NCBI RefSeq assembly: GCF_033568475.1
Contig: NW_027331831.1
Span: 3,596,001-3,660,000, forward strand
Length of the DNA: 64,000 nucleotides
Source of the DNA: Henckelia pumila
Lineage: Eukaryota > Streptophyta > Magnoliopsida > Lamiales > Gesneriaceae
Direction: 5' to 3'
Shown piece by piece: positions 7,518 through 60,619 of the stretch. Both the position numbers and the translations under genes were made by a program. Positions within the stretch are counted from its first letter, which is position 1. Every line of letters begins with the position of its first letter. The notes under the pieces were generated by a model that did not search any database, had not been told where the DNA came from, and was given only the letters and a program-made list of their open reading frames with translations.

Positions 7518-10500
7518 TTAATGTTGTTGCTGTAAATTAATCAATTTAAAATAAGCCCCGTGTTTACTCTCCATAAGGCTAGAATGAGTCCCTCGCTCTA
7601 TAACCTTCCCATCTTGCAACACACATATTGTATCAGCATTCTTGATGGTCGACAATCTATGTGCCACAACAACTGTGGTCCTGTTCTTCATCAATCTATC
7701 CAAAGCATGTTGAACCACACGTTCCGATTCGACGTCAAGGGCACTAGTAGCTTCATCCAAGAGCAAGATTGAAGGGTCCTTCAGAATAGCTCTTGCAATG
7801 GCTACTCTTTGTTTCTGGCCGCCGGAGAGTTGAACGCCTCGTTCCCCAACTCTAGTCGAGTATCCCTCCGGAAGTGCGCTGATGAAGTTATGCGCGTCCG
7901 CCAGTTTCGCTGACTCGATCACCTCATCCTCTGATGCTCCCTCTTTGCCATAAAGAATGTTCTCGTAAATGGATGTGGCGAATAGGGCCGGTTCTTGTTG
8001 CACCAGGCCGATGTGTTTCCTCAGTGACTTGAGTTTTAGTGTCTTGATGTCTTTCCCTGTATGCAAAAGTAAAATATTTATAACTTGTAATATAAACTAG
8101 ACTTTAGTTTTAAGTACTCAAGACTTGCTAGAAAGTGAGTTAACTTACCATCAATCAAGATTTTGCCTGACGTGGGATCATAGAACCTTAGAATGAGTGA
8201 TATCACAGAACTTTTCCCGGAACCACTTTGGCCTACAAGTGCCATGCTTTTTCCAGAGTGCACCGTAAGGTTAAAGTCCTTGAAGATCAGAACATCTGGT
8301 CTCGAGGGGTAGCTAAACTCGACGTCGTGGAGCTCGATAGTACCATCCACCACATAAACATCTTCTCCAACATCGTTTACAATCTCTGTCTTTCGATCGA
8401 GTACTTCAAATATTGATTCCAGCATTTGGTTTCCCTTGAGAATGTCTGGTGCCATAGCTAGCGTCTCTCCCATCGATAAGGCGGTTATGATCATTACCAT
8501 GAATGTCTTCATGACCGATTTAAAGCTTGCAAGCTCCTTCTCCATGAGGATAGAACCATACCTAGGAAAAAGTTGTAGCTTGGTTATATTGTTTGATATG
8601 TTATAAGTATCATCATCCACATACACAGACTATCCATAACAAGGACATTTAACATACCACAAGGCAAGACCATAAGACGAGAAGATGAAAAATTGCGAAA
8701 CACCATAAAATATCCCAGCAGCCTGACCCCGTCGGAATGAATGTTTAGATGGTTCAAGAAGCTCGCCCTGGTAAAGATCTAGCACCTTCTCCTCCGCGCA
8801 AAATGCTGCGACCGTACGTATGTTACTCACAGCTTCACCAGCAAGCATGTTTGCTTTTAGATACGCTTTGCTCAAGTCACCGCCGAAGCCTTTCATGAAA
8901 ATTCTCTGAAATAAAATACCAAAATAGGAGGATAATTTTCATTTTCACTATACCAAAGGGTCATATATAGGCTTTCACAGCTCAGCCAAACAGAATATAC
9001 TGTATGTTGAGTAGAAATCATATCTACCTCGCTAATATGACCGCTGATAACTAGAGGATACATTGCTATGATGACGAGTGTGAGTCTCCAGTTCAAGATG
9101 AAGGCAATGATGAACGAAGTCACGACTAAACCGACATTCTGTAAAAGGATAGTGGATCGATCAACCACTACAGTTTGCAACAATGTAGCCTCACTCTCTA
9201 GCCGGGATGCAAGCATCGTGCTCGTGTTGTCCACATCATCAAACCATCCCATCTCATTTCTCAACATAGCTGCCAAGAAATAAACAAGTAAACTAAGTTA
9301 TGGAGATGTAGCCAAAATATATTAGCAGGGGACAACATCATATCAAACTGTTTATTAAGCATGAAATACAGTTAGTTTTCAGTTCAATGGAATGACTATT
9401 AACATAGCTGTTATCGTGATGATGAACATACTCTTGAACATTTTTTTTCTGAGGCGAAGAGTAAGGCGTTCTCCCATGATCCCGAAACAGAGATATGTGA
9501 GGCCATGAACAATGAGGGTTATTACACCACCTCCACAGAAGAGCAATGAGATTTTCTTGACTTCACGACGTGTTGTGTCCCAGTCCATGTAATATGATAC
9601 TAGAGCTTGAGTGACTCCGATAGCAAAAAGTGGCATCTGCGCTCCGACTATGAAAGCACCTATTGTTCCAAGTACGCCATAGAACCAATCGGGGCGAGCC
9701 ATGGAATATAACCTACTTAAAGAAATACTTGTTGCTTTGGCATTCTCATCACCACCATATTTGCTTACAGACTTCTCCGAATGAAAACTTGAGCCTAGAC
9801 TTCTTGTTGTCTTTTGAGATGATTCCCGTGACAATCTGATGCTCGCACCTCGTGAGTGCCTAATGAGAAAACAGGAAAAAAAATGAACATAAAGGAAATT
9901 AAAACAGTAGGATCAAATGCTTTTTGTTGCACCGAAATTTATATTTGATGGTAACGGTGTAATTAAAATTTTTGATAACTGTATAGCAATATTTTTTGTC
10001 ATATATATGTCGATCGTTGTGCCAGATACGTTGCCACACAGATGAATAAGGGCAGTTACTGCTCTGCTTCCACAAAAACATTAATGAATATTCATTCATC
10101 CAGAGATTGATAACAAGAACAATATTAATGCAACATATTCGTTAACACTCATCGAGTAAGTGAAAGTCTAACCTGATAGGTCTTACTGTTGCAGCGCGGC
10201 CTGATGGAAGGCGAGCTAATGGAGCGTTTTCGTGAAGCTGAATGAGTGAAGAGTATGCACTACCTGGTCTTGACATGAGGTCTTCATGGCTTCCGGTTTC
10301 TACTATAGCACCGTCTTGTACGACAGCTATGATATCAGCGTTCCTGATAGTTGACAGGCGATGAGCCACCACGATTGTCGTCCTTCCAACCATCACATGG
10401 TCAAGAGCCTCCTGCACGCTCTTTTCTGAATCAGCATCAAGTGAGCTAGTAGCTTCATCCAACAACAAGACTGATGGATTTTTTACTATGGCACGCGCTA

Positions 10501-13500
10501 TTGCAATTCTTTGTTTTTGTCCACCAGATAGTTGTATTCCTCTCTCGCCAACCTAAAACATCATCTTTAGTAAAGCATAACCAATCAACGGCCTAAAAAA
10601 ATGTTTTGAGTAAGGTAAAGTAGTACCTGTGTTTGAAATCTATCTGGAAGGTTGTTGATGAACTTAATGGCATCTGCAAGCTTTGCTGCACTAGTGATCT
10701 CTTCAATGGTAGCATCGTTTTTCCCGTAGAGAATATTGTCTCTTATCGTCGTGGCAAAAAGAGCCGGTTCTTGATTCACCAAACCAATCTGCTGTCTTAA
10801 CCACTTTAGATCCAACTCCCTAATGTCATTTCCATCTAATAGTATGTTCCCTTGTCGGGGCTCGTAGAAGCGTTCTATCAGAGATATGACCGTGCTTTTA
10901 CCGGATCCGCTTCCTCCCACGAGGGCTACAATCTTTCCTGCTGGAAAATCCAAACAGAGCTTGTCGAAAATCAGCACATCGGGCCTGGATGGATAGCTGA
11001 ATGTGACGTTCTTGAATTGGATGTGGCCTTCTACTTTGTGCAGTTTCCTTCCATTCTCAGAGCTGCTTTTACTCATTGTGTTCCTCTCAATCATCTGGAA
11101 AATAGAATAAGCCGACGCCTTGGCTCTAATAAAGGATGTGACATTAGGTGCTGCTTGCCCGAGTGATCTAAATATTAACACACAAGAATTTTAGTTTTCT
11201 TGCATGATTATAATACAATGTTATTATATAGCTTAAGCATGTATTCTCATTTCATTATATGACTAAACATCAAACTCTAAGTATGAGAATCGAAAATCTT
11301 ACAAGCCAGCTATAACAACATTGATCATAGTGGTGAAAGACTCTCCTCCATCCGCGATATTTTTATGAACCACCGTGCTAGTGAACCAAACAAGGAGCGA
11401 CCACGATAGGAATAGGACACAATGCAACGTCCCGAGTCCAAGTCCCTTGGCCAGCCCCGCTTTCTTCCCATATTTGTAAGTGTTCAGCAGAGACATTGAG
11501 TATGATTTAACCGCTCTATCTTCGCCAACAAATGCTTGCACTGTTCGGACATTGCCAATTGCCTGCATGCAAAATTGCATCAAAGGGACTTATTAATATT
11601 GCACATGTATCTCTTCTCCTAGCTAGGACATTAACATGCATGTGTACCATGCAACTGGTGCATGGCGTTACGCCATTACCACGTGTTTTATAGAATACGA
11701 CGTGAGTTATATGATCAACTTTCATGTACCAAACATGATCATTCAGCAGTAACACAAAAGTTTGAATTGTATAATTTGTAATGTATAACAAACCTCTTCA
11801 GCAATTTCTCCAGCTTTGACATATGATTTTCGGGCGCTAGCGATAAGGCCAGTTGCAACATAAGCATAGAGTCCACCAGCAAATGCAGTCATCGGCACTA
11901 TCGAAAGTGTTACCAAACTGATTTGCCAAACGCTGTGGAAACCAATCGCAAATCCTGCGATGAAACGGCTGAAATAATGCAAAAAGTTCCCCACCTGCAT
12001 TCATTTGTCATTTTACTAAATCAGCAATAATCATTCTTGATTTATATATTAACTCATGATTTTTTTTTTAAATGATGATGAATATGAATCCCAATAGCGA
12101 CTAGAGTTAATCATTATTCGAGAACTAATGATGGAGTAAAAATGAGTATATTAGAGTCTCGATTGAATTTTAGACCACGTAGGTGCACAGAATTGGTCCG
12201 ATATATATTTGTATATATTCTATACGGAAGATTGTCCTGCAAAGATAAAAGTATGAATTTTACGGTAGATGAGATTCTAGTATATGGGTAATACCCAAAC
12301 CATGCATCCAACGGTTCGTATTTTTAAACATAGGCGTAATTAATTATATATTGTTGACGTGACAAATCATGAGACATTAGATCTATCATTGGGGTATTAT
12401 CCATGTGGTAGGTTGAAATCTACCGAAATTTACATGCACTTGTGGAAATATTGAATCAAGCATTTAATTAAGCGTGATAAAGCATATACGAACAACCAAC
12501 AACACAAAGCATAAAATAAATGTAGGGAACATGATTGAAAAATGAAAAGGAAATTTATCTACTTTTTATGTTTAAGAGAATATATCAAACTCATACAGCG
12601 ATATTTTTTCAATTATTTGAGTTGGCCATTCATGCTTAATTAATATAATACCTATATATTCTACTATCACGTATTTATCGACGGGCCATGAATTATACGT
12701 TATGGTGTGACATGACGTGAATTTAAGGATACAAAACCATCAAGCTACTGTTACAGATCGAAGAGCCCGTCTGCCAATTTAATGTGTAAAAATATATTAT
12801 TCAGAGATTTGAAACAAATTTAAAATCTTTTCATCTAAACACGCGCGGTAAAAAAAATAAAAAAAAATCGGATACAATGAAAATATAATCGATGGATGCA
12901 ATCAAATCAATTGTGGACCATGTCGAATTCTTGTGTCTGTATTTTACAAGAATTTGTGTTAAAAATTAACGTTTGCAAGTATTTCAACGTCAAAGAACTT
13001 GGAGTGACAGGTGTCATCTAATAGACTTCCCGAGCAAATTTTTAGACGAGGCAGATTAATTTGTGGCGGCCCCGGCCCAACTATCTTAATTAATGCATGC
13101 ATTGGCAAAAGAGTCAACAGTCAAAGTAGCAGAGATTCATGAAAAGATTTAATTATCAATAGTTTAATCAAAACCAGCAGGTATTAAGTAAAAATATGGT
13201 ACGTATTTAGTACATTAAATTTGTATTAAACCGTCTTTGTTATCTAACATATGACCAAATTACATGTATGTATGCATGTATTCACTTACCTATTATTAAT
13301 GCGAGCTAGGCCACCCTTCTATGAGTTGTAACTTTTTGACAAGAGGTCTCCAGAATATAGTGACGTACCTATTTTATGTTCTTGTACACTACAATTAGGA
13401 CCACTTTTCAGCTACTAGAACTCATGATTTATATATACGAAAATAGTTAATCTAAGTTGTTATAAGATCGATGTTCATTTAAGTTATTTTATAAATTATT

Positions 13501-17326: not shown

Positions 17327-17660
17327 GACAATATATGGGAAAATTGATTTTATCGTCCCGTATGTTTGTCATTTTGCGATTTAAGTTCTTTATATTTTCA
17401 TATTTTAGTTTTAGTCCGCTATCTTTGTTTTTTTTTGATAATTTTAGTCTTTTTTTCGATGTGGCGCTGATGTAGCACCAATGCAGTGTTGATGTGGAAC
17501 TGACGTGTATGGTGCCACGTAAGCATTTTCGAAAAAAATAGACTAAAATTGTCAAAAATCAGAACATACATGACTAAAACTGAAATATGAAAATATAGAG
17601 AACCAAAATTGCAAAGTGACAAACATATAAGACCAAAATTGCAGTTTTTCCGACAATATT
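17327..17660. mobile_element. Foldback Mutator-like MITE with 9-bp TSD
   Basis: The element 17336-17651 (316 bp) is one long imperfect palindrome. The left arm (GTATGTTTGTCATTTTGCGA, then TTTTAGTTTTAGTCCGCTAT) reappears reverse complemented in the right arm (TGACTAAAACTGAAATATG, then TTGCAAAGTGACAAACATAT). Flanking 9-mers GACAATATA (17327-17335) and GACAATATT (17652-17660) match at 8 of 9 positions. A 9-bp duplication is characteristic of the Mutator superfamily. It has no coding capacity; the 111-aa and 67-aa frames across it come from the repeat itself. Confidence 0.8.
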
Positions 17661-22724: not shown

Positions 22725-25717
22725 TTGTGAAACTTCATAGATGGGGACCGGGTATCGCACAACACAACTGAGTTTGAGAGTGGTGGGCTGGGCTCTACGT
22801 TTAGACCGAGTAGCCATATTTGGCCCGAACTTTCTTGATTGTTGAGTCCAGCCCATATAACCCCATGGAGCCCATTAAATTTTAATTCTTGTTGAAAAAG
22901 AGAGAATTTGGAAATAGACGGGATTATTCTACGCAATACCTGAAATATTTTTGCCCTCATGATGTGGTCAAATTACAAATATTGGATCATCAACACACAT
23001 GTCAATTTTCATACAAAATATAAGGGTATCACGTGATCTAATGATATTGAAATAAGGGAAAAAACACTTCTGGTATAACATAGACTAACCCGGATAAGAT
23101 GTGACTCCTCAGACTTCAAGTTTGAGGATTAAACTCTTTTGCTACTTTAATTATATTCATTTCAATTATATAGTTCTATTTTTCATTTGTTTCAAATATA
23201 TAATTCATTTTTCACATTCAATAAAATCTTTTGCTAATATTTATCTATTTTTAATGTGTATAATTTGTTTTCTCCTATTATAATATTATTAAATATAAGG
23301 ATGTATTAGAAATTTTGACTGAATAATTTGTTTACAAAATAGACTATATTATTGGGATGAATGAAATATTAAGTTCTAACAGGTATACTTTATATACATC
23401 AAGTGTGTGGTTTTTTTAAAAATAGCTTTCGAGTGGTTGGAGATAGATATCTCTATATTAGACATGCTACAATCAAACACGAGATTTATCCTAAATACGA
23501 GATTTATCCTAAATGTTGGAATTTGATATCATTTGAGGTATAACTCATACGTCTTTGTTTTTATTGAATGTTGGAATTTGATATCATTTGAGGTATAACT
23601 CATACGTCTTTGTTTTTATTGCTCATTAGTATGTAGTTAAATGATATTTATTTTATTTTATTATATTTTTAAAAAAATGCGTGCCTGCCAAACATGGTTG
23701 AAGCTTATCTTTTCTATATATTAAAATATATTATCTTCGACCTATTTTTTTTCTATGTACAAGTATTATTATTTTTTTCTTTTTTTTAAAGATGTACAAG
23801 TAGTTAAGATAAAAAATATCCAAAAAACTTCCAGATGTATCATTTCATAACAATTTTAACGTCCTCGTTTAAAAACAACATTACACAAATGGATAAATTT
23901 GTAAATCAAGGTTTTCAATATTCATTGTTTTAATTGCTTATTTAAATTTTAAACTGATAAAATATTATTTTCACTATCTTAATAATCCTTGGTCCTCCAA
24001 AAAAATTGTTAAAAAACAAAAACAAAAACAAAATTGACAAATCCGCAATCCAAGATAAAAAGCGAAAAAAATGATGATTTTTAAAAATACGATTACAATT
24101 TCGAGCACATATGAATAGTTATGCATACGCAATATACACACTATAGACAATTTTTTTTAAAAAAAAAATTGAAAATTCTTTAGAAATAAATGAAATAATA
24201 AGATAATAAAATTTACAGTGTGTATGTGTATCTGTGCGTTTGTGTGAATGGACTTGGACCAGCACTTAAATTCAACCGTATCGGACCCGTTTGTAGTCTA
24301 ACTTTGACTGTCGAAACAAAGCGTTGGAATAATTCAACAACGGGTGGCGATTTTATTAGTTTGGACCACTTCTAAATTCATTTGGACCTATTCATTTTGA
24401 GCCCAAAATAACAAAACAAGATCCATTCGATTTTTTTCTTTTAAAAGTTATTAATCATGTTTATAAAATTAAAACAAGTCTATCCATCTCATCTTATACG
24501 TTTACACAGTAATATTTCAGAAATCTTTAGAATTTTCAAAGGTGAAAAACAATGAGTATTTTAGAAATGCTATCGTTATTTACTCATTAGGAAAAGTAAT
24601 AATTTCATTAAATAAAAAGACACGAACACGAAATACATATAATTATTATTTGTCGTCGGCCCATTGACGCGACGCCATTTTACAAAGATAATCTACGACA
24701 AATTTGATGAGGTTTATTTGGTTGTTTCTTAGAAATTCCGATTCATATTCATACAAATGTACTCGAAAAAGGGGGGCCCCTACTTGTGTGACATGAATTG
24801 TTTGTTTTTTTCCTCGAAATTAACGTATTCCCGACCTTGAAGTAATTAATATAAAGTGTTGAAATTTGAACGCCACTCACCACTTGACCTTTTCAATTCC
24901 AACTTTGTCTCCTCATTGATTTTTTTTTTATTATGATTATTATTTCAATATTTATGAAAAAGAATACGAGATATATCTATTACTAACGCTTTTTATATAT
25001 ATAATAGTTTGATTACCGATAAACATGAACAGAAAAACGTCACAATTTGAAGAGAGATATTTTATTTGCCTGCCTTATCCCTTTACTATTTAATAAGAAT
25101 ATCATTTAACTTAATAATGCAATTCAATAAGGACCCCATGGCATTACCCAAAGAGCAACGTGATACGTGACATTGATTGTTGCAAAGCTAATGTCACCAA
25201 ACATGCCTTTTTAGAAAATCTAGTTCAATTTCATCAGTTTAAGTTTTTTATATACACTAAATTTATAGATTTTAGCATATTTTTTTTGAGTTGGGTTGTT
25301 ACAAACTCGAGATCTTAATGTCATGTGAATTAATAAGTTATAAGTTACTAAGAAATTACTTTTAAGTTACATTTCTAATTTATCAGTGTTGTATTTATGA
25401 ATTTGAGATTGGTAAGATTCTCTCCGTCTTTTAAAAAGTCAATTGGTATTGAGATTTGTTAATTCTCTTCATGCTTATGCCTCAAATGCCACTTTCTAAC
25501 CTTCTATGTCTTCTCTTATTGATCACATGATTTATAACGAATTTGAGGACAATTATGCTCTTAAATCAATCATAAGACTATCATTTAAAGAAGTTGAATC
25601 CTAAGATTATTTTAAACTATTTTAGGGATCATAATTTACCGTGTCTATTATTTCCCTATCATGGATTTTAGTCATAAATTGCTGTCTTGTATTGTCTTTG
25701 CCCGTTTAGAGTTAATC
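22725..25717. other. Intergenic DNA upstream of the V-ATPase assembly gene
   Basis: The first few hundred bases are the 5' UTR and promoter of the minus-strand gene. The rest is AT-rich with no recognisable gene. It contains short tandem duplications (listed separately) and ends in a degenerate partial copy of the start of the large tandem array: CTATTTTAGGGATCAT at 25618-25633 and again at 25717-25732. Confidence 0.5.
23479..23621. repeat. Short tandem duplications (18 bp and 55 bp)
   Basis: An 18-bp word, ACGAGATTTATCCTAAAT, occurs twice in a row at 23479-23514. It is followed by a perfect 55-bp tandem duplication, 23512-23566 and 23567-23621, each starting AATGTTGGAATTTGATATC. The perfect match indicates recent duplication. 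Confidence 0.9.
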
Positions 25718-27349
25718 TATTTTAGGGATCATCATAATTCGTCCCGAACTTCTCTGCATTGCTTATGTTGTCTTTGCCCGTTTAAATGTAATCACCATTT
25801 GCTAACGAACTAATTTTTTTCTGCATTAGAAATTTCGGGTATAAAGTTTTTTTTCTAAGTATAAGTAATTTTAGTTTTATTTCAAGTTTGAATCTCAATT
25901 ACGTTTCTTAATTTTATCCCCCACCATCTTCGAATTATTTAAGTAGATTAAAATAAAAATTCAGACTGAGAACTTTAAAGTTCAAAGCAAGCTGGTGTCT
26001 TTTATGGCAAATTCTATTTTACCTCGGAGTAACACTCTCAATGTAATTTACACAAAATGTTCATATCAACATCTGATTTAAAAGAAAAAAATATTGATAG
26101 ATTTCACATTATTTTTTTTTATAAAAAATGTTTGTAAAACTATTATTTATTTTTACTCTTAGAGTACGGGAACATTAGCATTTTGGTCCTGTATGTTGAC
26201 TTCTTTTTGGTTTTGGTCCTGTATGTTGGCTTGTTTTGGAAAAGATCCTGTAATTCGATTTTTTTTTGGATTTAGTCCTATATGTTGGCTTATTTTGGTT
26301 TTAGTCTTATAAGTTGGTTTGTTTTTTGGTTTTCGTCATGTATGTTATCATGTTTTGAAATTTAGAAGTTGATCTCTAATTATTTTTGTAATAAATATTT
26401 TTTATTCTTTCATGTTTTATCTGCTTATTGGTTTGAGATAATTACAACTAACTAATAAAAAAATATTTTTTTACGCTTAAACTTTTTTAAATCTAAATAA
26501 TTTAATAAAATCTAAAATATGTTAATTTAATGTATTAAATGTAACATACTTTTGTTCTTTTAAAAATTAACAAACAAACATTCATTTATATCGTTCTCAA
26601 CTTTAAGTTCGATTTTTTTATTTATTTGACACTAAGTGTTCGCCCACTTAGCACCTATTAATGATCATATAAATAAGTTCCAACCTAAATTAATAAAATT
26701 AACTAAAAAACTAAAAATATATTTAAAACATACTTTTGTTTTATTTAAAAGTAACACTCTAATATATTTTTTTATCGTTCTCAACTATGGTTGACTTTTT
26801 TTGTTCCGCTTTTCTCGAAAGCAGAGCTTTTTAGGTATGTTTCACTTTTATCACGCTTAATCGCCGCTTAAGCGTGCTTTTTAGAACACTGCAAATAAGC
26901 AAAATTTTGCTGCTCCCTCCAGTTTTGGCGACGGAGGAAAAATACAAAAAAAAAAAACCAAGTTATTGTACCTTTTAGAACATAATTATTATTTTAAAAA
27001 ATAATTAGAAAGTCAACATCTAAATTTTAAACCTAATTTATTTAATTATAAAATCATAAAAAAATACTTATTATAAAAGCTTAAGCGGTGAAGTTGGAAA
27101 GTCAACTTCTAAATTCTAAATTTAATTTATTATTTTCAAATAAAAAACATAGGCGCTTATTCTAACTTAATTACCGAGCTTAATTTGGTCAAAACCGTAT
27201 ATTTTTCATGACCAAAATAAAAAAATAAGTCAACTAATATGACCAAATCCAAAAAAAATCCAAATTCCTGTGCTTTTTTCAAAACATAACTTTGTATAGG
27301 ACTAAAATCAAAAATTAAGTCAACTTATAGGACCAAAACCAAAACAATC
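25718..27349. repeat. Tandem array unit 1 (founder-like)
   Basis: This unit carries private variants against units 2-5: CACTCTCAATG where the others have CACTCACAATG, GAGTACGGG for GAGTACGAG, TGTTGACTTC for TGTTGGCTTC, GTCTTATAAG for GTCCTATAAG, and TTTTATTTAAAAG where the others have an uninterrupted T run. It borders unique DNA on its left. The left transposon end is at 26168. Confidence 0.9.
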
Positions 27350-28980
27350 TATTTTAGGGATCATCATAATTCGTCCCGAACTTCTCTGCATTGCTTATGT
27401 TGTCTTTGCCCGTTTAAATGTAATCACCATTTGCTAACGAACTAATTTTTTTCTGCATTAGAAATTTCGGGTATAAAGTTTTTTTTCTAAGTATAAGTAA
27501 TTTTAGTTTTATTTCAAGTTTGAATCTCAATTACGTTTCTTAATTTTATCCCCCACCATCTTCGAATTATTTAAGTAGATTAAAATAAAAATTCAGACTG
27601 AGAACTTTAAAGTTCAAAGCAAGCTGGTGTCTTTTATGGCAAATTCTATTTTACCTCGGAGTAACACTCACAATGTAATTTACACAAAATGTTCATATCA
27701 ACATCTGATTTAAAAGAAAAAAATATTGATAGATTTCACATTATTTTTTTTTATAAAAAATGTTTGTAAAACTATTATTTATTTTTACTCTTAGAGTACG
27801 AGAACATTAGCATTTTGGTCCTGTATGTTGGCTTCTTTTTGGTTTTGGTCCTGTATGTTGGCTTGTTTTGGAAAAGATCCTGTAATTCGATTTTTTTTTG
27901 GATTTAGTCCTATATGTTGGCTTATTTTGGTTTTAGTCCTATAAGTTGGTTTGTTTTTTGGTTTTCGTCATGTATGTTATCATGTTTTGAAATTTAGAAG
28001 TTGATCTCTAATTATTTTTGTAATAAATATTTTTTATTCTTTCATGTTTTATCTGCTTATTGGTTTGAGATAATTACAACTAACTAATAAAAAAATAATT
28101 TTTTACGCTTAAACTTTTTTAAATCTAAATAATTTAATAAAATCTAAAATATGTTAATTTAATGTATTAAATGTAACATACTTTTGTTCTTTTAAAAATT
28201 AACAAACAAACATTCATTTATATCGTTCTCAACTTTAAGTTCGATTTTTTTATTTATTTGACACTAAGTGTTCGCCCACTTAGCACCTATTAATGATCAT
28301 ATAAATAAGTTCCAACCTAAATTAATAAAATTAACTAAAAAACTAAAAATATATTTAAAACATACTTTTGTTTTTTTAAAAGTAACACTCTAATATATTT
28401 TTTTATCGTTCTCAACTATGGTTGACTTTTTTTGTTCCGCTTTTCTCGAAAGCAGAGCTTTTTAGGTATGTTTCACTTTTATCACGCTTAATCGCCGCTT
28501 AAGCGTGCTTTTTAGAACACTGCAAATAAGCAAAATTTTGCTGCTCCCTCCAGTTTTGGCGACGGAGGAAAAATACAAAAAAAAAAAACCAAGTTATTGT
28601 ACCTTTTAGAACATAATTATTATTTTAAAAAATAATTAGAAAGTCAACATCTAAATTTTAAACCTAATTTATTTAATTATAAAATCATAAAAAAATACTT
28701 ATTATAAAAGCTTAAGCGGTGAAGTTGGAAAGTCAACTTCTAAATTCTAAATTTAATTTATTATTTTCAAATAAAAAACATAGGCGCTTATTCTAACTTA
28801 ATTACCGAGCTTAATTTGGTCAAAACCGTATATTTTTCATGACCAAAATAAAAAAATAAGTCAACTAATATGATCAAATCCAAAAAAAATCCAAATTCCT
28901 GTGCTTTTTTCAAAACATAACTTTGTATAGGACTAAAATCAAAAATTAAGTCAACTTATAGGACCAAAACCAAAACAATC
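27350..28980. repeat. Tandem array unit 2
   Basis: 1631 bp. It has the private change ATGATCAAATCC (others ATGACCAAATCC) and shares TTTTTCATGACC with unit 1, whereas units 3-5 have TTTTCCATGACC. Confidence 0.9.
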
Positions 28981-30613
28981 TATTTTAGGGATCATCATAA
29001 TTCGTCCCGAACTTCTCTGCATTGCTTATGTTGTCTTTGCCCGTTTAAATGTAATCACCATTTGCTAACGAACTAATTTTTTTCTGCATTAGAAATTTCG
29101 GGTATAAAGTTTTTTTTTCTAAGTATAAGTAATTTTAGTTTTATTTCAAGTTTGAATCTCAATTACGTTTCTTAATTTTATCCCCCACCATCTTCGAATT
29201 ATTTAAGTAGATTAAAATAAAAATTCAGACTGAGAACTTTAAAGTTCAAAGCAAGCTGGTGTCTTTTATGGCAAATTCTATTTTACCTCGGAGTAACACT
29301 CACAATGTAATTTACACAAAATGTTCATATCAACATCTGATTTAAAAGAAAAAAATATTGATAGATTTCACATTATTTTTTTTTATAAAAAATGTTTGTA
29401 AAACTATTATTTATTTTTACTCTTAGAGTACGAGAACATTAGCATTTTGGTCTTGTATGTTGGCTTCTTTTTGGTTTTGGTCCTGTATGTTGGCTTGTTT
29501 TGGAAAAGATCCTGTAATTCGATTTTTTTTTGGATTTAGTCCTATATGTTGGCTTATTTTGGTTTTAGTCCTATAAGTTGGTTTGTTTTTTGGTTTTCGT
29601 CATGTATGTTATCATGTTTTGAAATTTAGAAGTTGATCTCTAATTATTTTTGTAATAAATATTTTTTATTCTTTCATGTTTTATCTGCTTATTGGTTTGA
29701 GATAATTACAACTAACTAATAAAAAAATATTTTTTTACGATTAAACTTTTTTAAATCTAAATAATTTAATAAAATCTAAAATATGTTAATTTAATGTATT
29801 AAATGTAACATACTTTTGTTCTTTTAAAAATTAACAAACAAACATTCATTTATATCGTTCTCAACTTTAAGTTCGATTTTTTTATTTATTTGACACTAAG
29901 TGTTCGCCCACTTAGCACCTATTAATGATCATATAAATAAGTTCCAACCTAAATTAATAAAATTAACTAAAAAACTAAAAATATATTTAAAACATACTTT
30001 TGTTTTTTTTAAAAGTAACACTCTAATATATTTTTTTATCGTTCTCAACTATGGTTGACTTTTTTTGTTCCGCTTTTCTCGAAAGCAGAGCTTTTTAGGT
30101 ATGTTTCACTTTTATCACGCTTAATCGCCGCTTAAGCGTGCTTTTTAGAACACTGCAAATAAGCAAAATTTTGCTGCTCCCTCCAGTTTTGGCGACGGAG
30201 GAAAAATACAAAAAAAAAAAACCAAGTTATTGTACCTTTTAGAACATAATTATTATTTTAAAAAATAATTAGAAAGTCAACATCTAAATTTTAAACCTAA
30301 TTTATTTAATTATAAAATCATAAAAAAATACTTATTATAAAAGCTTAAGCGGTGAAGTTGGAAAGTCAACTTCTAAATTCTAAATTTAATTTATTATTTT
30401 CAAATAAAAAACATAGGCGCTTATTCTAACTTAATTACCGAGCTTAATTTGGTCAAAACCGTATATTTTCCATGACCAAAATAAAAAAATAAGTCAACTA
30501 ATATGACCAAATCCAAAAAAAATCCAAATTCCTGTGCTTTTTTCAAAACATAACTTTGTATAGGACTAAAATCAAAAATTAAGTCAACTTATAGGACCAA
30601 AACCAAAACAATC
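28981..30613. repeat. Tandem array unit 3
   Basis: 1633 bp. Private changes are TTGGTCTTGTATG (others TTGGTCCTGTATG) and TTTACGATTAAAC (others TTTACGCTTAAAC). It shares TTTTCCATGACC with units 4 and 5. Confidence 0.9.
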
Positions 30614-32246
30614 TATTTTAGGGATCATCATAATTCGTCCCGAACTTCTCTGCATTGCTTATGTTGTCTTTGCCCGTTTAAATGTAATCACCATTTGCTA
30701 ACGAACTAATTTTTTTCTGCATTAGAAATTTCGGGTATAAAGTTTTTTTTTCTAAGTATAAGTAATTTTAGTTTTATTTCAAGTTTGAATCTCAATTACG
30801 TTTCTTAATTTTATCCCCCACCATCTTCGAATTATTTAAGTAGATTAAAATAAAAATTCAGACTGAGAACTTTAAAGTTCAAAGCAAGCTGGTGTCTTTT
30901 ATGGCAAATTCTATTTTACCTCGGAGTAACACTCACAATGTAATTTACACAAAATGTTCATATCAACATCTGATTTAAAAGAAAAAAATATTGATAGATT
31001 TCACATTATTTTTTTTTATAAAAAATGTTTGTAAAACTATTATTTATTTTTACTCTTAGAGTACGAGAACATTAGCATTTTGGTCCTGTATGTTGGCTTC
31101 TTTTTGGTTTTGGTCCTGTATGTTGGCTTGTTTTGGAAAAGATCCTGTAATTCGATTTTTTTTTGGATTTAGTCCTATATGTTGGCTTATTTTGGTTTTA
31201 GTCCTATAAGTTGGTTTGTTTTTTGGTTTTCGTCATGTATGTTATCATGTTTTGAAATTTAGAAGTTGATCTCTAATTATTTTTGTAATAAATATTTTTT
31301 ATTCTTTCATGTTTTATCTGCTTATTGGTTTGAGATAATTACAACTAACTAATAAAAAAATAATTTTTTACGCTTAAACTTTTTTAAATCTAAATAATTT
31401 AATAAAATCTAAAATATGTTAATTTAATGTATTAAATGTAACATACTTTTGTTCTTTTAAAAATTAACAAACAAACATTCATTTATATCGTTCTCAACTT
31501 TAAGTTCGATTTTTTTATTTATTTGACACTAAGTGTTCGCCCACTTAGCACCTATTAATGATCATATAAATAAGTTCCAACCTAAATTAATAAAATTAAC
31601 TAAAAAACTAAAAATATATTTAAAACATACTTTTGTTTTTTTTAAAAGTAACACTCTAATATATTTTTTTATCGTTCTCAACTATGGTTGACTTTTTTTG
31701 TTCCGCTTTTCTCGAAAGCAGAGCTTTTTAGGTATGTTTCACTTTTATCACGCTTAATCGCCGCTTAAGTGTGCTTTTTAGAACACTGCAAATAAGCAAA
31801 ATTTTGCTGCTCCCTCCAGTTTTGGCGACGGAGGAAAAATACAAAAAAAAAAAACCAAGTTATTGTACCTTTTAGAACATAATTATTATTTTAAAAAATA
31901 ATTAGAAAGTCAACATCTAAATTTTAAACCTAATTTATTTAATTATAAAATCATAAAAAAATACTTATTATAAAAGCTTAAGCGGTGAAGTTGGAAAGTC
32001 AACTTCTAAATTCTAAATTTAATTTATTATTTTCAAATAAAAAACATAGGCGCTTATTCTAACTTAATTACCGAGCTTAATTTGGTCAAAACCGTATATT
32101 TTCCATGACCAAAATAAAAAAATAAGTCAACTAATATGACCAAATCCAAAAAAAATCCAAATTCCTGTGCTTTTTTCAAAACATAACTTTGTATAGGACT
32201 AAAATCAAAAATTAAGTCAACTTATAGGACCAAAACCAAAACAATC
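30614..32246. repeat. Tandem array unit 4
   Basis: 1633 bp. It has the private change TTAAGTGTGC (others TTAAGCGTGC), which breaks one arm of the conserved hairpin in the unit. Confidence 0.9.
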
Positions 32247-33879
32247 TATTTTAGGGATCATCATAATTCGTCCCGAACTTCTCTGCATTGCTTATGTTGT
32301 CTTTGCCCGTTTAAATGTAATCACCATTTGCTAACGAACTAATTTTTTTCTGCATTAGAAATTTCGGGTATAAAGTTTTTTTTTCTAAGTATAAGTAATT
32401 TTAGTTTTATTTCAAGTTTGAATCTCAATTACGTTTCTTAATTTTATCCCCCACCATCTTCGAATTATTTAAGTAGATTAAAATAAAAATTCAGACTGAG
32501 AACTTTAAAGTTCAAAGCAAGCTGGTGTCTTTTATGGCAAATTCTATTTTACCTCGGAGTAACACTCACAATGTAATTTACACAAAATGTTCATATCAAC
32601 ATCTGATTTAAAAGAAAAAAATATTGATAGATTTCACATTATTTTTTTTTATAAAAAATGTTTGTAAAACTATTATTTATTTTTACTCTTAGAGTACGAG
32701 AACATTAGCATTTTGGTCCTGTATGTTGGCTTCTTTTTGGTTTTGGTCCTGTATGTTGGCTTGTTTTGGAAAAGATCCTGTAATTCGATTTTTTTTTGGA
32801 TTTAGTCCTATATGTTGGCTTATTTTGGTTTTAGTCCTATAAGTTGGTTTGTTTTTTGGTTTTCGTCATGTATGTTATCATGTTTTGAAATTTAGAAGTT
32901 GATCTCTAATTATTTTTGTAATAAATATTTTTTATTCTTTCATGTTTTATCTGCTTATTGGTTTGAGATAATTACAACTAACTAATAAAAAAATAATTTT
33001 TTACGCTTAAACTTTTTTAAATCTAAATAATTTAATAAAATCTAAAATATGTTAATTTAATGTATTAAATGTAACATACTTTTGTTCTTTTAAAAATTAA
33101 CAAACAAACATTCATTTATATCGTTCTCAACTTTAAGTTCGATTTTTTTATTTATTTGACACTAAGTGTTCGTCCACTTAGCACCTATTAATGATCATAT
33201 AAATAAGTTCCAACCTAAATTAATAAAATTAACTAAAAAACTAAAAATATATTTAAAACATACTTTTGTTTTTTTTAAAAGTAACACTCTAATATATTTT
33301 TTTATCGTTCTCAACTATGGTTGACTTTTTTTGTTCCGCTTTTCTCGAAAGCAGAGCTTTTTAGGTATGTTTCACTTTTATCACGCTTAATCGCCGCTTA
33401 AGCGTGCTTTTTAGAACACTGCAAATAAGCAAAATTTTGCTGCTCCCTCCAGTTTTGGCGACGGAGGAAAAATACAAAAAAAAAAAACCAAGTTATTGTA
33501 CCTTTTAGAACATAATTATTATTTTAAAAAATAATTAGAAAGTCAACATCTAAATTTTAAACCTAATTTATTTAATTATAAAATCATAAAAAAATACTTA
33601 TTATAAAAGCTTAAGCGGTGAAGTTGGAAAGTCAACTTCTAAATTCTAAATTTAATTTATTATTTTCAAATAAAAAACATAGGCGCTTATTCTAACTTAA
33701 TTACCGAGCTTAATTTGGTCAAAACCGTATATTTTCCATGACCAAAATAAAAAAATAAGTCAACTAATATGACCAAATCCAAAAAAAATCCAAATTCCTG
33801 TGCTTTTTTCAAAACATAACTTTGTATAGGACTAAAATCAAAAATTAAGTCAACTTATAGGACCAAAACCAAAACAATC
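32247..33879. repeat. Tandem array unit 5
   Basis: 1633 bp. It has the private change GTTCGTCCAC (others GTTCGCCCAC). It continues without a break into the unique right end of the transposon (33880-34000). Confidence 0.9.
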
Positions 33880-36560
33880 AACATGTAGGACTAAATCCAA
33901 AATAAAAACAAAATTACAAGATCTTTTCCAAAACAAGCCAATATACAGGACCAAAACCAAAATAAAGCCAACATACAGAACTAAAATGCTAATTTTTCCC
34001 TCCGAGTATCCTTGACAAAGCCGTCTTTTTAATTACTAATAATAATAATTATTATTATATTAGCTACACTCTCTAGAAGTCAAAAGACTCTATAACTTCT
34101 TATGGTTAGGGATTTTGCAGCTATGGCGTCTGCATTCATTATGTTTGATAAATTCAAAAGCCACCAAATCACGAGTACTTTGGTAAGTAAGTAAGATCAA
34201 AACACACGTAAAACTCATTTATACTCATAAAGTTCTTTCATTTTCGAAGCCAACTGAAAATTTTTGACAATATAAAATGATTATGAAATAAATGATTAAT
34301 TTTTTTTAAAAATTCACAAACCATATCAAAAATTTTCTAGTGTGGAACATAAAGGAAAATTTGTAAAATATATCCGGTCAAATTTTTTTTTTTAGAAAAT
34401 GACATCCTCAAATGTATATTTTTTTTGAGAAAAAAATTATAATATAATTGAGGACGTCATTTTCCTAAAAAAAAAGTTGACCGAAGTTAAAAAAAAATTT
34501 ACCCCTAAACACAAATTATCATATCACTAACTTAACTATGGGCTTACATTATGATGCACATGAAATTTTTACTCTAGTGCATCATATTTTTTTGGATCTT
34601 TTTGTTGGGAGTGGACACATGATCCAACGGTTATGATGTACCTAAAATAAACCTCGTGCAGCATTACCCCATAGATGCAATCTGAAGATCATTGGTTGCA
34701 CTCGTTCTCTCAATTTTGTCTATTTTTTAATATACGAGCTTCTAAATTTACAATAACAGTTATTTTTTTAAATAATTTACTATATCGTTCTCTAATCCGA
34801 TAAAAAAATTATTTTGACTATCTTCACTTAAATTTCTTGACTCCGTCCCTTGTCAGAGCGACAAAGTTTGTTAATCCAACATAATAACAATGTGTTAGGA
34901 CCAACAACCAAATGTTTCTTCAACATATCGAGCGTACAAATCAGGGAGCTAGACAAGGAATGGGCTGTGGGCATGCATTGCCCGAATCCGTCTCATAAAT
35001 TTGTTTTAAAACAAATTTTTTTTACGGCAAACTTGTAAACCTTTTATTAAGATAAATTTGTTTTAAAACATTTAATTATACAAAAGTACAAAAAAAAAAA
35101 ACAAAAAACGAAAAATATTAATCGGAAGAGAATGGGAAATTTTTGTTATAAATGGGGTTGGGTTCATACATAGGTGGACCAGAAGCGTAATTTGACATAT
35201 TTTCATCGAATCGAACCGAACTTTCGTGTTAATTTTTGCACACCTAATGGTTCCAATCATATATAAACTCTAATGTATAAACTACTTACAATACATACAG
35301 AAAGTATATATATGTTAAATCGCACAACGCACCGTGCATTATTTGAAACGACAAATTAAGATATTGATATTGTAGAAGGAATTCCCAGGCAATTTCCCAC
35401 ACCGAAGTAGGTAATATTGGTGACCACACTCAATAACCAACCCATTAATATATGGATAAGTAGATACAAATACCTAAAAATAGTAGATAAAACTTTATTG
35501 CAACATCTTCTTTATTTTTTTTATCTTACATTTCATTACCATGTAATCGATTAAATTCTTACATGTCTTTTAATAATCGAAATGACGCAAGAATAACAAA
35601 CTGTAGCTAGTATGGAATACGTCGAGAATTGCTAAATCAAAAGGCAAGACATTTGGCATATATGGGGATATATATCAAGCGTAGAATTAATTTTATAATC
35701 GACAATAATTGAACAAAGTGTGGAGTTAAGTGAATGATTGCATTGAGGCTTATGCAACTTGACTGATGATTATGCCAATGCCCATCATTTTTTCAGTTTA
35801 AAGAAACGGAAAATGGGAGACTTTAAATTGGTGGAGAATATATTCAACTTCCCATATAATGCATAAGATATGTATTACTTTATGGGGTCTATGGCTTGGG
35901 CAGAAAAAGTGGCCAATCAACTGAAAAATGAGACTCACGATTCACAATTTCCCCCACTTTAAAGTGCTCCTACTTGGATTTTCACTTGCCATAAAGTGGA
36001 TCCAAATTATGTTTTCGGAATGAGTCATTTCATATTGGGCGGAATTACTTTATAATGCAGAAGAAATGCTAAGTGTGTTGATTTATAAATAATATCCTTT
36101 TTTAAGAAAAATAATATCCAATTTCATACCATTAATGATGGCAGGTTGTATTTTAAATTTAAATAAATAATGAAAAATTGACTTACAAAAATGAAAAGCT
36201 AGACCATGTAACACGTTTGAAGAGACATATAATGCCAATTTGGCTTTCCGACCATTACCATTATCACACGGGGGGGCGCACACGTTGTTCGCAATTTGAA
36301 CATGCTAATAGCAACCAAATCACTCTACCTTAACTTCTACATACATAAATATATACAATATATATGTATATAAAATAAAGAAAGTAACATAATTAATTGA
36401 TTGCAAGAAAGTTTGACTTAAATTTGTGTCAGATTATATATTTCCAAATTTCCACACCCAACCATCTCAATTAATGACCGAAAGTCTAAAGTAGAATACC
36501 ATAGGTATCTATAATGTGTCACAAAATTTTTACCCAAAAAAAATTGAAAATGTAATATGT

Positions 36561-36562
<2 letters not shown>

Positions 36563-36630
<68 letters not shown>
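36563..36630. repeat. Compound microsatellite (AT)21(GT)13
   Basis: A run of AT dinucleotides (36563-36604) passes directly into a run of GT dinucleotides (36605-36630). Likely highly polymorphic. Confidence 0.95.
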
Positions 36631-37584
36631 AACACAAACACACACAAAGAGGTTGATTGAGGAGTCAGTATATCTACCATTTTGTGATGTAGGGTGGTTA
36701 GGCTATTGAATAATTGAATTTGGAAAAACGAGGCATAGTTGTGTCATGTGTGAAAGAGGGAAGAAAAAAAAAAAGGTCAAGTCCCGTTCTTCGATATTAA
36801 TTAGGTTCGAAAAATAAAAAATATAATGGCATGAATTCTTGAATGAATGGAATAATAAAACTATAAGACATCGTTTGGTTTGAGCTATGATATAAGTAAT
36901 ATATAGATATATAGTATAATGTAATAAAAAATAAATAAGAAATTATAGTTAAAATTGTATTGGATTTGATTGATAGATTATGATTCATTTGATTTGATTG
37001 ATTAAATTTTATATAAAAATGTTAAATGACTATTTTGTCTTTTTAATAATAAATAAAATAAAAATTATATTATTTATAAGAGATAATATAGTAATTTGAA
37101 TTCAATGATTTGATTGATATGAGATAAATAATTAATGATTTGATTGATGCAAAATAAATAATTAATATATAGATAAATAATATGATAAGAAGAACGTGAG
37201 ATTAGATTAGATGCGTTATATATATATTAATAATATCGTGAAAAGAACGGTGCCTAAAAATACAGGAAATGGGATACGATGCAAAATGTGGTGTTTTGAA
37301 TACAATCAACATAAACATACAATTTACTAAAAAAAATAAAAATAAACATACAATAAAATATATCCAAATGAATAGTAGATTCTTTATCCTCAAAAATAAT
37401 AAAAAATAAAAATAAAAAAGAAGAAGATTCTCTAATCTTTATATATACACATAAATGAGAAATATCCACATCCGCGACAATTTACAACTTAATCTCCACC
37501 GTGAAAATAATCAATGGACCAAATCAATCGGGGCCCAGGCGAAAAAAACAACTAGAAAAACCCCTCCACCAAGAAACATTACCC

Positions 37585-37585
<1 letters not shown>

Positions 37586-37639
<54 letters not shown>
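37586..37639. repeat. (ATT)18 microsatellite
   Basis: An uninterrupted run of ATT trinucleotides. The Leu-only or Asn-only stretches in frames across it are artefacts of the repeat. Confidence 0.95.
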
Positions 37640-38643
37640 TGTATTCATCAAAGGACGGCTTGACCTAACACTTTGATTCCAATAACGAAAGGCACCTGGC
37701 TTTGCTGTGTCCAATTACGATTTGACACGTTCCACTTTCTAGAAACGACGTCGTCTACCGCCGGGCACACACGGCCGCCGCCAAACTGGAAGAACTCTCC
37801 ATAAGTCAACGTTCTAAATATAGCATTCATTTCCTTCTAAATAAATAAATAAATATTAGCATTCATCAACCACGGTTCGATTCCTGCCTCAACCCCCAAA
37901 AAATCACTTCTTCATCCTCATTCCAAATCCATCTCAAATTGGCAAAATCTTTTCCAAATTATAATTCAAACTAACTAATAATACCACACCCAATTTTCAA
38001 ATTACTAAATCACTTCATGTTATCTTTATTTTTGGTTCTCACATTTATTTAAAAAATTTATCTCCTCAACCCATGGAGCGTAATACCTGCACTTATTTCA
38101 CGGCTACATCAAATGTACAACTCGAAAACAATCGCAATTAGGCGAAAATATAATAACACAGATAATTTCCTTTCATTTCTAGAATACATGAACACAGCAG
38201 CCTAAAGGCACAAACTACACATTTACAGTTTTGTCCATTGACCGTAAGTAAACTAAGAGGCCAAAATTATAGAACAAAATCCCATAATCTACAACCACAC
38301 CGTAAGGCCTAAAAAGATGTATGTGGATTTCACAGACCAAACACTTGAATATGCTATTTTATGTTATATATATAATATCAAACTTAGTAATTGTTTTTAT
38401 TATTTCTACATACTTGGCTCCTGCCCAACAATATTTCACATTCTATAATTTTTATATTGCCTCTATTTACAATGTGGCACCCCCTAGATTGAAAGGAGAA
38501 GAAGAAGAGGAGCTAAATCAGCCACAGAGTGAGGTTTTGGGCTATCCTTTTTCTTCCTTTCCTTCTTTTTTTTTTTCTTTTTTTTTTTAATTGGTGATGG
38601 GGAGAAGGCCAATTTCAGTTTGTAAAGGGGCTATACGGGAATT

Positions 38644-47714: not shown

Positions 47715-48557
47715 GGGATAATAGCCAAAATAGTTTTGTAAGTTTATTGTTTTGTGATTTGATTCTGTAAGTATTTAATTTTGGGTTTTCGTCCTTTAAG
47801 TTTAGTTATATTTTGGTTTTTAGGTTTTTTTTCATTTTAGCAATGTTTTTTAATTTATAATCGGACCGGTAATTAAACCGATATAACTTAAAAAACGATA
47901 CAACTGATTGAAATGTTTTAACCGGACAGTCGGATTGAAAAATCATTTATATAATATAATTAATAATATATTTTAAATTTTAAAAACCTAAAAAATTTAT
48001 ATAAATAAAAAAATGTATGTATTTATCGTAGTTTGAAAACTAATTAACTATATAAATATATTTAAAAAAATTGTAAACTTTAATATTAATAAATAGTATT
48101 TTTAACAAAGAAAAAATTTCAAATAATGATGTATATATATAATAAAATATTAAATTAAAATTTTAAAATAAAAAACTAATTTTTCAAAAAAATTGAAAAA
48201 TTAATTTTTCGGTTCTTGATCAGTTTTGCCTGTTCAACCATTAAGACGATTTTTGGGAGTGTTTTTAATCAAATCAGTGATCGGTTTCGGATCGAACTGG
48301 TTGAACCAGTCGGTACAGTCCGATTTTGAAAACATAGAATTTAATCGTTGATGCCACAACAGACACACATCATCATTTTTCAGTGTCACTTAAGCATTTT
48401 TAGCTGTTACACCAGCATTTTCTGATGTCACGTCAACACTTTATGAAAAAATAACTAAAAACCAATTATAATTTAACTTATAGGATCAAAATCCAAAATT
48501 AAATACTTATAGGACCAAAACACAAAATAACATACTTATAAGGACCATTTTGACTAT
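47715..48557. mobile_element. Non-autonomous Mutator-like element, inverted sibling of 57238-58085
   Basis: The left end GGGATAATAGCCAAAATAG and the right end ATTTTGACTAT are inverted copies. The interior (CCGGTAATTAAACCGATATA, GGTTGAACCAGTCGGTACAG) matches the reverse complement of the element at 57238-58085 over about 840 bp. No clear target-site duplication remains, and the right terminus is degenerate. It begins 265 bases after the stop codon of the 46829 gene, so it may contribute to its 3' end. No coding capacity. Confidence 0.75.
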
Positions 48558-53034: not shown

Positions 53035-56000
53035 TTACAAGACCCGGTCTTGAAAATCTGTTAATAATGTGGATGCCAAGGTGCTGATTTTCTTACCGGT
53101 TTCTCCTGCAATGCTCTTAAGAGAGGAAATATCTTGTTGTGCCTGAAAACCAACAAAACCAAGGAAGATAGATATATTGCAAAGAAACTGGAAACTATAG
53201 GAGGATAAAATTAACACGGAATAAATCAGATATATAACATGGGTGTTTAAAAACCACCTTTCCGTGAAGATTGAGCTCATGGGTGAATTGCCATACAAAG
53301 TTATATTTATACTTTTAACATGCCACCTCTCACCACGAATAATAAATATTTGGAATTAATGTCTATAAAAACTAAAGGCCTAAGACCAACATACTGAAAT
53401 ACGAAGTCTATGCACCAGGTTTTGGACCCATGACCCATCCATGGTTAGAAACCACTGGCACCAATGAGTTCATGAATCATGAGGTATGATCGCAATAGAA
53501 TTCAAACTTTACAAAGGAATGAAAGCCATATGAAGAAATAATTTTGAAGCTAAACTCGCAGAAGAGAAAAATATATGAAGTCAAATTTTAGGAATATGCG
53601 TACAATTGGATATGTTGCTGATGTATGTATACCTGGAAAGATAGACGGTTGATAAGATCAGATGCAGTAAGATCCAAAGAATCACTTGTATCTCGACCAA
53701 AGAAATCAGCACTAGAGATTGATGATGAACCCTACAGTGCATCGAAAGAAATATGTTTAGAACTTTAGATTCTGTAAATATCTTCATTTTAAATCTTTCC
53801 AGCATTTTATGCGACATACTCAGCGATATCAATTAAATCCAATCATTTGTATTAAAATTCAGAATAGATTTTTTATTCCCAAAGCTTATGTATGCATAAG
53901 TTATAATCATATAAACATGACAAGCAAGAAATATAGAACCACAATGGACAACTAACTTGATGACCATTTGTCCACTCGAAGCTCCAACAAAATTAAAGAG
54001 CAGCATTAACATAAAAATTGTGGAATGCACTGAGAAGCCTAGACGATAGAGCTTGGGAAGCAAAAGAAAAACAATGATCCCCCACGGTGCACCCAATGAT
54101 CAGAAACTGGAAAAGAAGATAAATGTAAGACTACATACAGAGAACTTCTGTAGCGAAATTGAAGAATCCAGGTCTTTGTTTTTGTTTTGAACACCGAAAA
54201 ACTGAGCCGATGATATAGATTTTGCATTGGAAAACTTCTTCCGTGCTTCATCCGTTTCCTCTACCTGATGGATGGATACCAATGTGAGACTTAATTGTCA
54301 TGAAAATATTTAATCAATCCTTAGAAGAAAAACAAAGTAATCTTATCAAAACTACAACCAGTGTCATTATCAAAAGCTTAATTAACATGCATGGAGCCAT
54401 GTTTTACTCTTCAATTTTTTACGGAATTATAAGCAGGTTTGTTCCATTCAGCAATCATAAATTTTTCTGTAATTTTAGCAAGAACTAAAAAAACATCACT
54501 CAATATTTGATTGGTACAAGTCAAATGAGAGCAACTGAACATATTTTGTGGAATGGATATTGCATTTTATCTGTTTCCCTATAAGCAGAATATGCATTTC
54601 ATGTTGAAGAGATAATCAACTAAATTAACAAACTTGTCACCCGTGATCCAGAAAATATTGATTCCTTCAGTTGCCAATGACAGTTTCTTACCTGAACTTT
54701 TGATGAAGTTGTGGTACCCTTCTTAGGAAGGCCAGTTTCCATCCCATAATCGGCAAAAAAGTTGGAGGATTTTGGTGGAGTTACATGGTTAATAACTCGA
54801 GCACCTCCAGAACCAATGTCTGTAGGCTGGTCACTGTCTGTAAACTCAAACCGAGATGGAAATGATGATCCAACTGTGGGGGTGCTACTATTTGATGAAG
54901 CAGCAGAATAAATGACCTTGGGTGGTTCTTCTGGCTTCTGCTCATAAAGGCTATCACTGGGCTAAAAACATGTAAAAAGCATTCGATTATTCAGTAGATA
55001 GAACATATGATTGTGATGGATAAGTAAAGAATATTCGACCATATCATACCAAAAATTCAAGAAATTACATTTACAGCATAAAGCTATATTTACCTTGGTA
55101 GTAAGTTTTCGAGCACCTAGACCCCCTGCCTTTCCAGGTTTTTTTGCACCAAGAGGCTTCTTAATTGTCGCCAAAGAAACAGTTTGAGAGGCTCTTGGAG
55201 AAGTATGAACCTCCGAAGTACCATTTTTTAGTGCACAATTATCCTTTGTAGCATTCTCTACAGCACTTCCTTTTGGGACTTTATTTATGTCATTGTTAAA
55301 ATTTGAAATTTTGTTAGAAGGCCTTGATGACTGAGAAGCTATGGGTGATGTAGGTAAACCAGCCTCTTCAGCATTGCTTTTAGCAACTTCTTTTGCAAGT
55401 AATTGCCTATATAATTCGGCAGCCTTTGAGGTATATTTGGCATCTACCTTGCCTCCATCACTCCATCCGTGCTGATTGAAGAAAACTTGAGCGCGAGTAT
55501 TTCCGCCGAAGCACATCAACTTCAACTGCTCAGGAGTCCAAGAATCCAAATTTGTTGACCTGCAATTAAAAAGTCAATTTCCACAAACCTACAAAAGAAA
55601 ATCTCTTTGCAAGATAAAATCAATTTCTCAAGTACAAGTTAGATAAATGAAATGAACTCTCGGAAAGCATATCCAAATACGTTTAAAAGACACCGCATCA
55701 CTCAAGCACATAAAAATTAAAATATGAGAGAGATATGACACTTTTAAAATAGAAAGCTGTAGCACAATTTCCATGTGCCAAACACCAATACTATTTTCTT
55801 TACAAAATTTAAAGTTAATCATGCTAAGCAGCCTGAAGATTCACAAGGTAAAGGAGTGTAGAGGAGAAAATATGACAATGCTATTGACACATATTCCTTC
55901 ATTCTTTAACCCCAACATTTTTATTTTCTACTTAAAACTTTTCTCCTAATTTATCTCTTTATAATTAACACTTTCACGTTTGTTGTCCATCAGCCTGCAT

Positions 56001-60545: not shown

Positions 60546-60619
60546 TAAGAGCCCCGATCGAGGCGAAGGGCCCGGGTAGGAAGTAAGGAGAACTTACGGT
60601 ATCGGATAATCAAGTAAAA

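Follow-up and report, generated by a model that had tools for sequence, protein, structure and literature searches.

A tandem array of five 1.63-kb units in Henckelia pumila most probably arose, at a probability we put at roughly 80%, from one insertion of a Mutator-like element (MULE), followed by an AATC-mediated tandem duplication and then by unequal exchange or gene conversion that brought the array to five units. It lies in the window, by which is meant the whole 64,000-nucleotide stretch of DNA that was analysed (positions 3,596,001 to 3,660,000 of contig NW_027331831.1), and coordinates are counted from the first base of that stretch.

The array extends from 25717 to 33878 and consists of five head-to-tail units on the forward strand: unit 1 (25717..27348, 1632 bp), unit 2 (27349..28979, 1631 bp), unit 3 (28980..30612, 1633 bp), unit 4 (30613..32245, 1633 bp), and unit 5 (32246..33878, 1633 bp). 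Only 14 of the 1633 columns are variable, any two units differ at 2–9 positions (0.55% at most), and the occurrence of five such near-identical 1.6-kb units is, as judged without a formal test, far beyond chance. Each unit opens with ~451 bp of flanking DNA (unit positions 1–451 in units 1 and 2, and 1–452 in units 3–5), continues through the left end and interior of the element, and closes within an incomplete right inverted repeat that ends 122 bp short. All four internal junctions share one breakpoint, and the complete right end, reaching to 34000, is present only after unit 5, which runs into it uninterrupted. The initial annotation had described a five-unit array with precisely this composition of ~450 bp of flank, left repeat, interior and partial right repeat, and both the array and its make-up are borne out now that the units have been delimited; the span it gave, 25718–33879, is also correct, as the AATC found at both breakpoints allows the unit boundaries to slide by 4 bp. 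No ORF of at least 120 aa occurs from 22857 to 38630 (counting open frames, introns aside), which places the array away from long coding frames, and a scan of the window for Rfam families and tRNAs returned neither.

The element itself is best seen at the right-hand edge of the array, where a complete, non-autonomous copy of ~1.30 kb (32698..34000, forward strand) is made up of part of unit 5 and the right end beyond it, with both termini matching those of 25 dispersed copies. Its left terminal inverted repeat (TIR), at 26168..26360 on the forward strand in unit 1, is ~190 bp long and built of ~29-bp sub-repeats, while the complete right TIR, at 33807..34000 on the reverse strand, is 84% identical to it; in units 1–4, only the inner ~72 bp of the right TIR are retained. 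In unit 1 the element starts at 26168 with GGGAACATTAGCATTTT, and it is non-coding, the longest stop-free frame being 55 aa. Candidate target-site duplications on the forward strand border it on the left (TTAGAGTAC, 26159..26167) and on the right (TCCGAGTAT, 34001..34009), and as these are degenerate, matching at 6 of 9 bases (a match of at least 6/9 has a chance of ~0.02), a duplication at the array locus is suggestive only. Sub-repeats of the same ~29-bp TIR type ('GGACCAAAA') also occur elsewhere in the window, in fragments at 17546–17637 and 48454–48530 that are 73–76% identical and are perhaps the remains of related elements.

Genome-wide, a pattern drawn from the interior core of the element matched 137 times with at most 3 mismatches (67 forward and 70 reverse, with 0 for the control), a terminal pattern matched 262 times (135 and 127 by strand; control 0), and a narrower core pattern, specific to one sequence variant, matched 12 times, including 5 within the array. 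Target-site duplications of MULEs are 8–11 bp in length, typically 9, and duplications of this kind were found in the dispersed copies that were opened, which measure 1293–1315 bp. The duplication was 10 bp and exact in 12 of these 25 copies, 9 bp and exact in 6 (18/25 exact in all), and carried one mismatch in 4; among the remaining three, that of L022 is off by one missing base, as judged by eye, and L021 and L038 have none. Together with TIRs that well exceed 100 bp, the 9–10 bp duplications identify the element as a MULE, a combination that we take to fit the Mutator superfamily. Two of the copies (L032 and L036, at 207.72 and 206.54 Mb of G000:C4 and thus 1.18 Mb apart) are 98.8% identical over 4.3 kb that includes their flanks and are one insertion duplicated and not two insertions, so the 25 copies stand for 24 independent insertions. 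L013 and L015, which sit in different flanks, differ at just 0.5% of sites (6/1181), and the family may therefore have been mobile around the time when the array formed.

A search for an autonomous partner with the same ends covered 150 MULE (PF10551) domains scored out of 1188 candidates, and one paired candidate. No matching element terminus (at most 3 mismatches in 18) was present within ~1.5 kb of the domain at any of the 30 loci checked, and the sole long paired candidate opened (L071) proved to be a copy of the family interrupted by ~3.4 kb, with a longest closed stop-free frame of 101 aa; no such partner was thus found among the PF10551 loci and the paired candidate checked.

The case for a single insertion amplified together with its flank, as the initial annotation had proposed, is made by the flank, by the junction and by the phylogeny of the units. 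When the flank was used as a query (451 bp, 25717..26167 on the forward strand in unit 1), five full-length matches were recovered among the best-scoring candidates of a genome DNA search, all of them inside the array; the seven further matches were partial, covering 66–126 query bases at 69–85% identity, and all fell in query positions 310–438. Across the 884.7-Mb genome, a 32-mer spanning the unit junction was found at four places, each of them in the array, and further arrays in unrelated flanks, which the annotation had named as the finding that would speak against it, did not turn up in the genome search. When the 25 copies and the element-derived part of each unit were placed in one tree, all five units fell into a single clade, supported at 1.000. 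At 29 columns the five agree with one another against the majority of the family, and at 11 of those the shared state is absent from every one of the 25 dispersed copies. Moreover, the units lie at K2P distances of 2.3–2.4% from the family consensus, and the dispersed copies at 1.6–3.1%. Set against these values, the differences between units (at most 9 of 1633 positions) indicate that the array is younger than the insertion, or else homogenised, in agreement with the recent or homogenised expansion originally suggested.

The breakpoints offer a glimpse of how the duplication might have started. The left one, with AATC at 25714..25717 on the forward strand, shares a 4-bp microhomology with the right one at 33876–33879; compared across the boundary, three bases before it and one after it are common to both. 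At random breakpoint pairs in this region, at least 4 bp would be shared with a probability of 0.036, and the microhomology thus gives mild support for template switching. Immediately to the left of the array lies an older, diverged sequence of ~100 bp (copy A, 25616..25716, forward strand), a direct repeat of the ~76 bp with which unit 1 begins (copy B, 25717–25792). The A/B alignment scores 67, where 2000 block shuffles reached 44.5 at most, and two short pieces of it also appear in a blastn comparison of the sequence with itself. The left breakpoint of the array falls on the A/B junction, a coincidence that was spotted post hoc and carries no probability, and the same spot thus took part in two duplications.

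Taken together, these features are consistent with the following course of events. A ~1.3-kb non-coding MULE with 190-bp inverted repeats would have inserted once into a stretch lacking long open frames. Later, synthesis during repair or replication may have proceeded through the left flank and most of the element, come off its template within the right inverted repeat, and restarted at the AATC located 451 bp upstream of the element, where the landing point would have been the junction of the older ~100-bp duplication. Such a template switch would yield a tandem duplication of two units, and unequal exchange together with gene conversion between the 1.6-kb units could subsequently have raised the number to five and brought about partial homogenisation. 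The sequence itself shows the anatomy of the units, the single locus, the origin from a single clade, the microhomology and the conflicting variant patterns among units; from these, together with the one breakpoint at four junctions, the intact right end in last position only and the unique flank, we infer that the template was switched, in which order things happened and that units exchanged sequence. Against this account stand the shortness of the microhomology (just 4 bp), the confinement of the variant conflicts to two pairs of columns, one of them including a homopolymer-length column, and a target-site duplication that is degenerate here (6/9) despite being exact in most copies elsewhere. 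The array is probably a by-product of repair without any function in its own right, and individuals would be expected to differ in how many units they carry.

Variants within the array preserve some of this order. At element base 2, unit 1, the most divergent of the five, retains the ancestral G found in all 25 dispersed copies, and units 2–5 carry a derived A, which implies either common descent of these four from one unit other than unit 1 or homogenisation. Four-gamete conflicts at column pairs 131/751 and 751/1491 suggest that exchange or conversion may have taken place between units, though one column in these pairs is a homopolymer length, where homoplasy is possible. Support for branches inside the array is low, at 0.74–0.79.

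Another means by which the same anatomy could have been generated is gap repair that was interrupted after excision of the element. Here, the left broken end would copy the sister chromatid through the element, lose the template while inside the right inverted repeat, re-invade 451 bp upstream, and copy once more. This is in effect a transposition-linked version of the template switch, with which its odds overlap, and it accommodates a right breakpoint inside the right inverted repeat, an intact right end in the last unit only, and a family that was possibly mobile near the array's time, given the two dispersed copies 0.5% apart. However, nothing in the sequence requires an excision, and plain template switching during replication gives the same product; moreover, one strand around the right TIR, taken as DNA, folds in an ordinary fashion (z −0.43). 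As a specific account of this array, interrupted gap repair is accordingly unlikely, even if it is the foremost of the alternatives. Stalling caused by a hairpin in the right inverted repeat was also considered and set aside, given the unremarkable folding of that strand alone. A shade more doubtful still is the general proposition that post-excision gap repair yields arrays of element plus flank, and that cut-and-paste transposons with long TIRs can in this way seed satellites containing unique host DNA; were the gap-repair reading true, the array described here would have been caught at its five-unit stage.

An assembly artefact, in which one or two true units were over-expanded, is improbable to a greater degree. 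Near-identical tandem units are a classic problem for assemblers, and the scaffold that carries the window measures 16.255 Mb, compared with 183–234 Mb for four contigs of the assembly, and is thus perhaps unplaced. Private variants, however, occur in all five units, at least one in each, and the mixing of variants among them is unlike the stutter of one copy. Pure assembler stutter is thus unlikely, and the private variants are compatible with a wrong copy number. The scaffold (contig C77 of G000) is exactly 16,255,000 bases long, a figure that resembles a cut made on a binned contact map.

Far less probable than either of these is a rolling-circle array of the Helitron type, in which numerous 5′ ends would go with one 3′ end and the MULE would be a mere passenger. 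A series of left ends with just one right end does recall the Helitron arrays described in PMC12628747, and the left boundary reads A|TC. Nevertheless, one strict scan of both strands, of unproven sensitivity, gave zero matches to a CTRR end with a perfect, G+C-containing hairpin upstream of it, whether downstream of the array or window-wide, and the first ~300 bp of the unit had no match elsewhere among the best-scoring candidates of the genome DNA search; a Helitron origin was therefore rejected. Least credible of all is a double-insertion model, in which the transposon would have inserted again and again close to itself; this has a precedent within the family (L072, below) and is contradicted by the identical 451-bp flank and truncated right repeat of each unit and by their single clade, where independent insertions would differ.

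The initial annotation likened the array to the birth of a satellite DNA, and this holds for the amplification of a single insertion and not for satellite status. The head-to-tail arrangement of five units is that of a satellite; long arrays and/or many loci, and abundance in the genome, which would also be looked for, are absent, given five units, 8.2 kb and one locus, with a junction confined to its four occurrences here. Growth into a satellite is a possible future. By-eye inspection of 100 of the 137 core matches, those listed, revealed no other multi-unit array of the family, and the same 100 contained two same-strand pairs within 2 kb of each other outside the array. The first (L072, G000:C2:99306601-99309700) is a MULE copy nested in a second one, of which 10 bases are found again at each end of the inner copy, and reads as a self-insertion. 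In the second (L073, G000:C2:193012501-193014200), the left 343 bp are doubled in tandem at 92% identity. None of the 25 opened dispersed loci had a second tandem copy within its 1.5-kb flanks. Short direct repeats of 72–85% identity touch the flanks in 8 of these 25 loci, and at one of them (L027) the flank is paired with the element interior.

Satellites and tandem arrays are derived from nearly every kind of transposon, according to PMC12628747 and PMC9659126. For example, hobo elements of Drosophila form arrays of up to 16 copies (McGurk and Barbash 2018, as described in PMC12628747). As in the present case, these are DNA transposons in short head-to-tail arrays that may act as satellite seeds; hobo dimers, however, are ascribed there mainly to insertion-site preference, whereas the unit here includes 451 bp from outside the transposon and a right repeat that is cut short, so that the array arose by duplication. 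Xstir, miDNA4 and Tetris, all satellites of MITEs or other TIR elements, likewise present non-autonomous DNA transposon sequence in tandem (PMC9659126 and PMC12628747). In miDNA4 and Tetris, the repeat is a part of the element (internal and TIR, respectively), in contrast to the near-whole element plus flank in five copies seen here; the Xstir repeat is internal in PMC12628747 and given as TIR in PMC9659126, and microhomology is invoked for miDNA4 in the former. Tandem LTR-retrotransposons, which are frequent and polymorphic in plants according to PMC11899658, also produce a tandem structure from a single insertion, but do so as LTR elements sharing their LTRs and not as a TIR element with its flank. 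Finally, terminal sequence is duplicated in tandem in the multi-TIR MULEs (PMC3310237), and the doubled left end mentioned above looks like one of them. The extra TIRs of such MULEs occur within one mobile element that has its own target-site duplication, whereas in H. pumila whole units repeat together with flank. Among the titles and opening lines of abstracts covered by a literature search on transposon-derived arrays, no array of a MULE plus flank was met. The array is a fresh and clear example of the well-documented tandem arrays derived from transposons and leaves the general view unchanged; its new detail is that the left breakpoint coincides with the boundary between the two copies of a diverged 100-bp duplication that predates the array.

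Satellite origins often have to be read from old, homogenised arrays in which the first step has been erased. At this one locus, the two breakpoints and their microhomology can still be read, as can the founding insertion and the order of internal variants, and the array gives a view of the way in which longer arrays of repeats may begin. The locus could also serve to study whether, in a population, arrays of this kind expand, contract or vanish.

Elsewhere in the window, two smaller tandem repeats were noted, namely an exact 55-bp tandem duplication at 23512–23621 and a 44-bp unit repeated 3.5 times with 91% matches at 60619–60771. A weak match to ArfGap, below the cut-off, was seen at 54962–55549. 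Coding exons of the trehalose-phosphate synthase/phosphatase type occupy 31–1356, and exons of an ABC transporter (by Pfam on one ORF) are located on the minus strand at 7518–11181.
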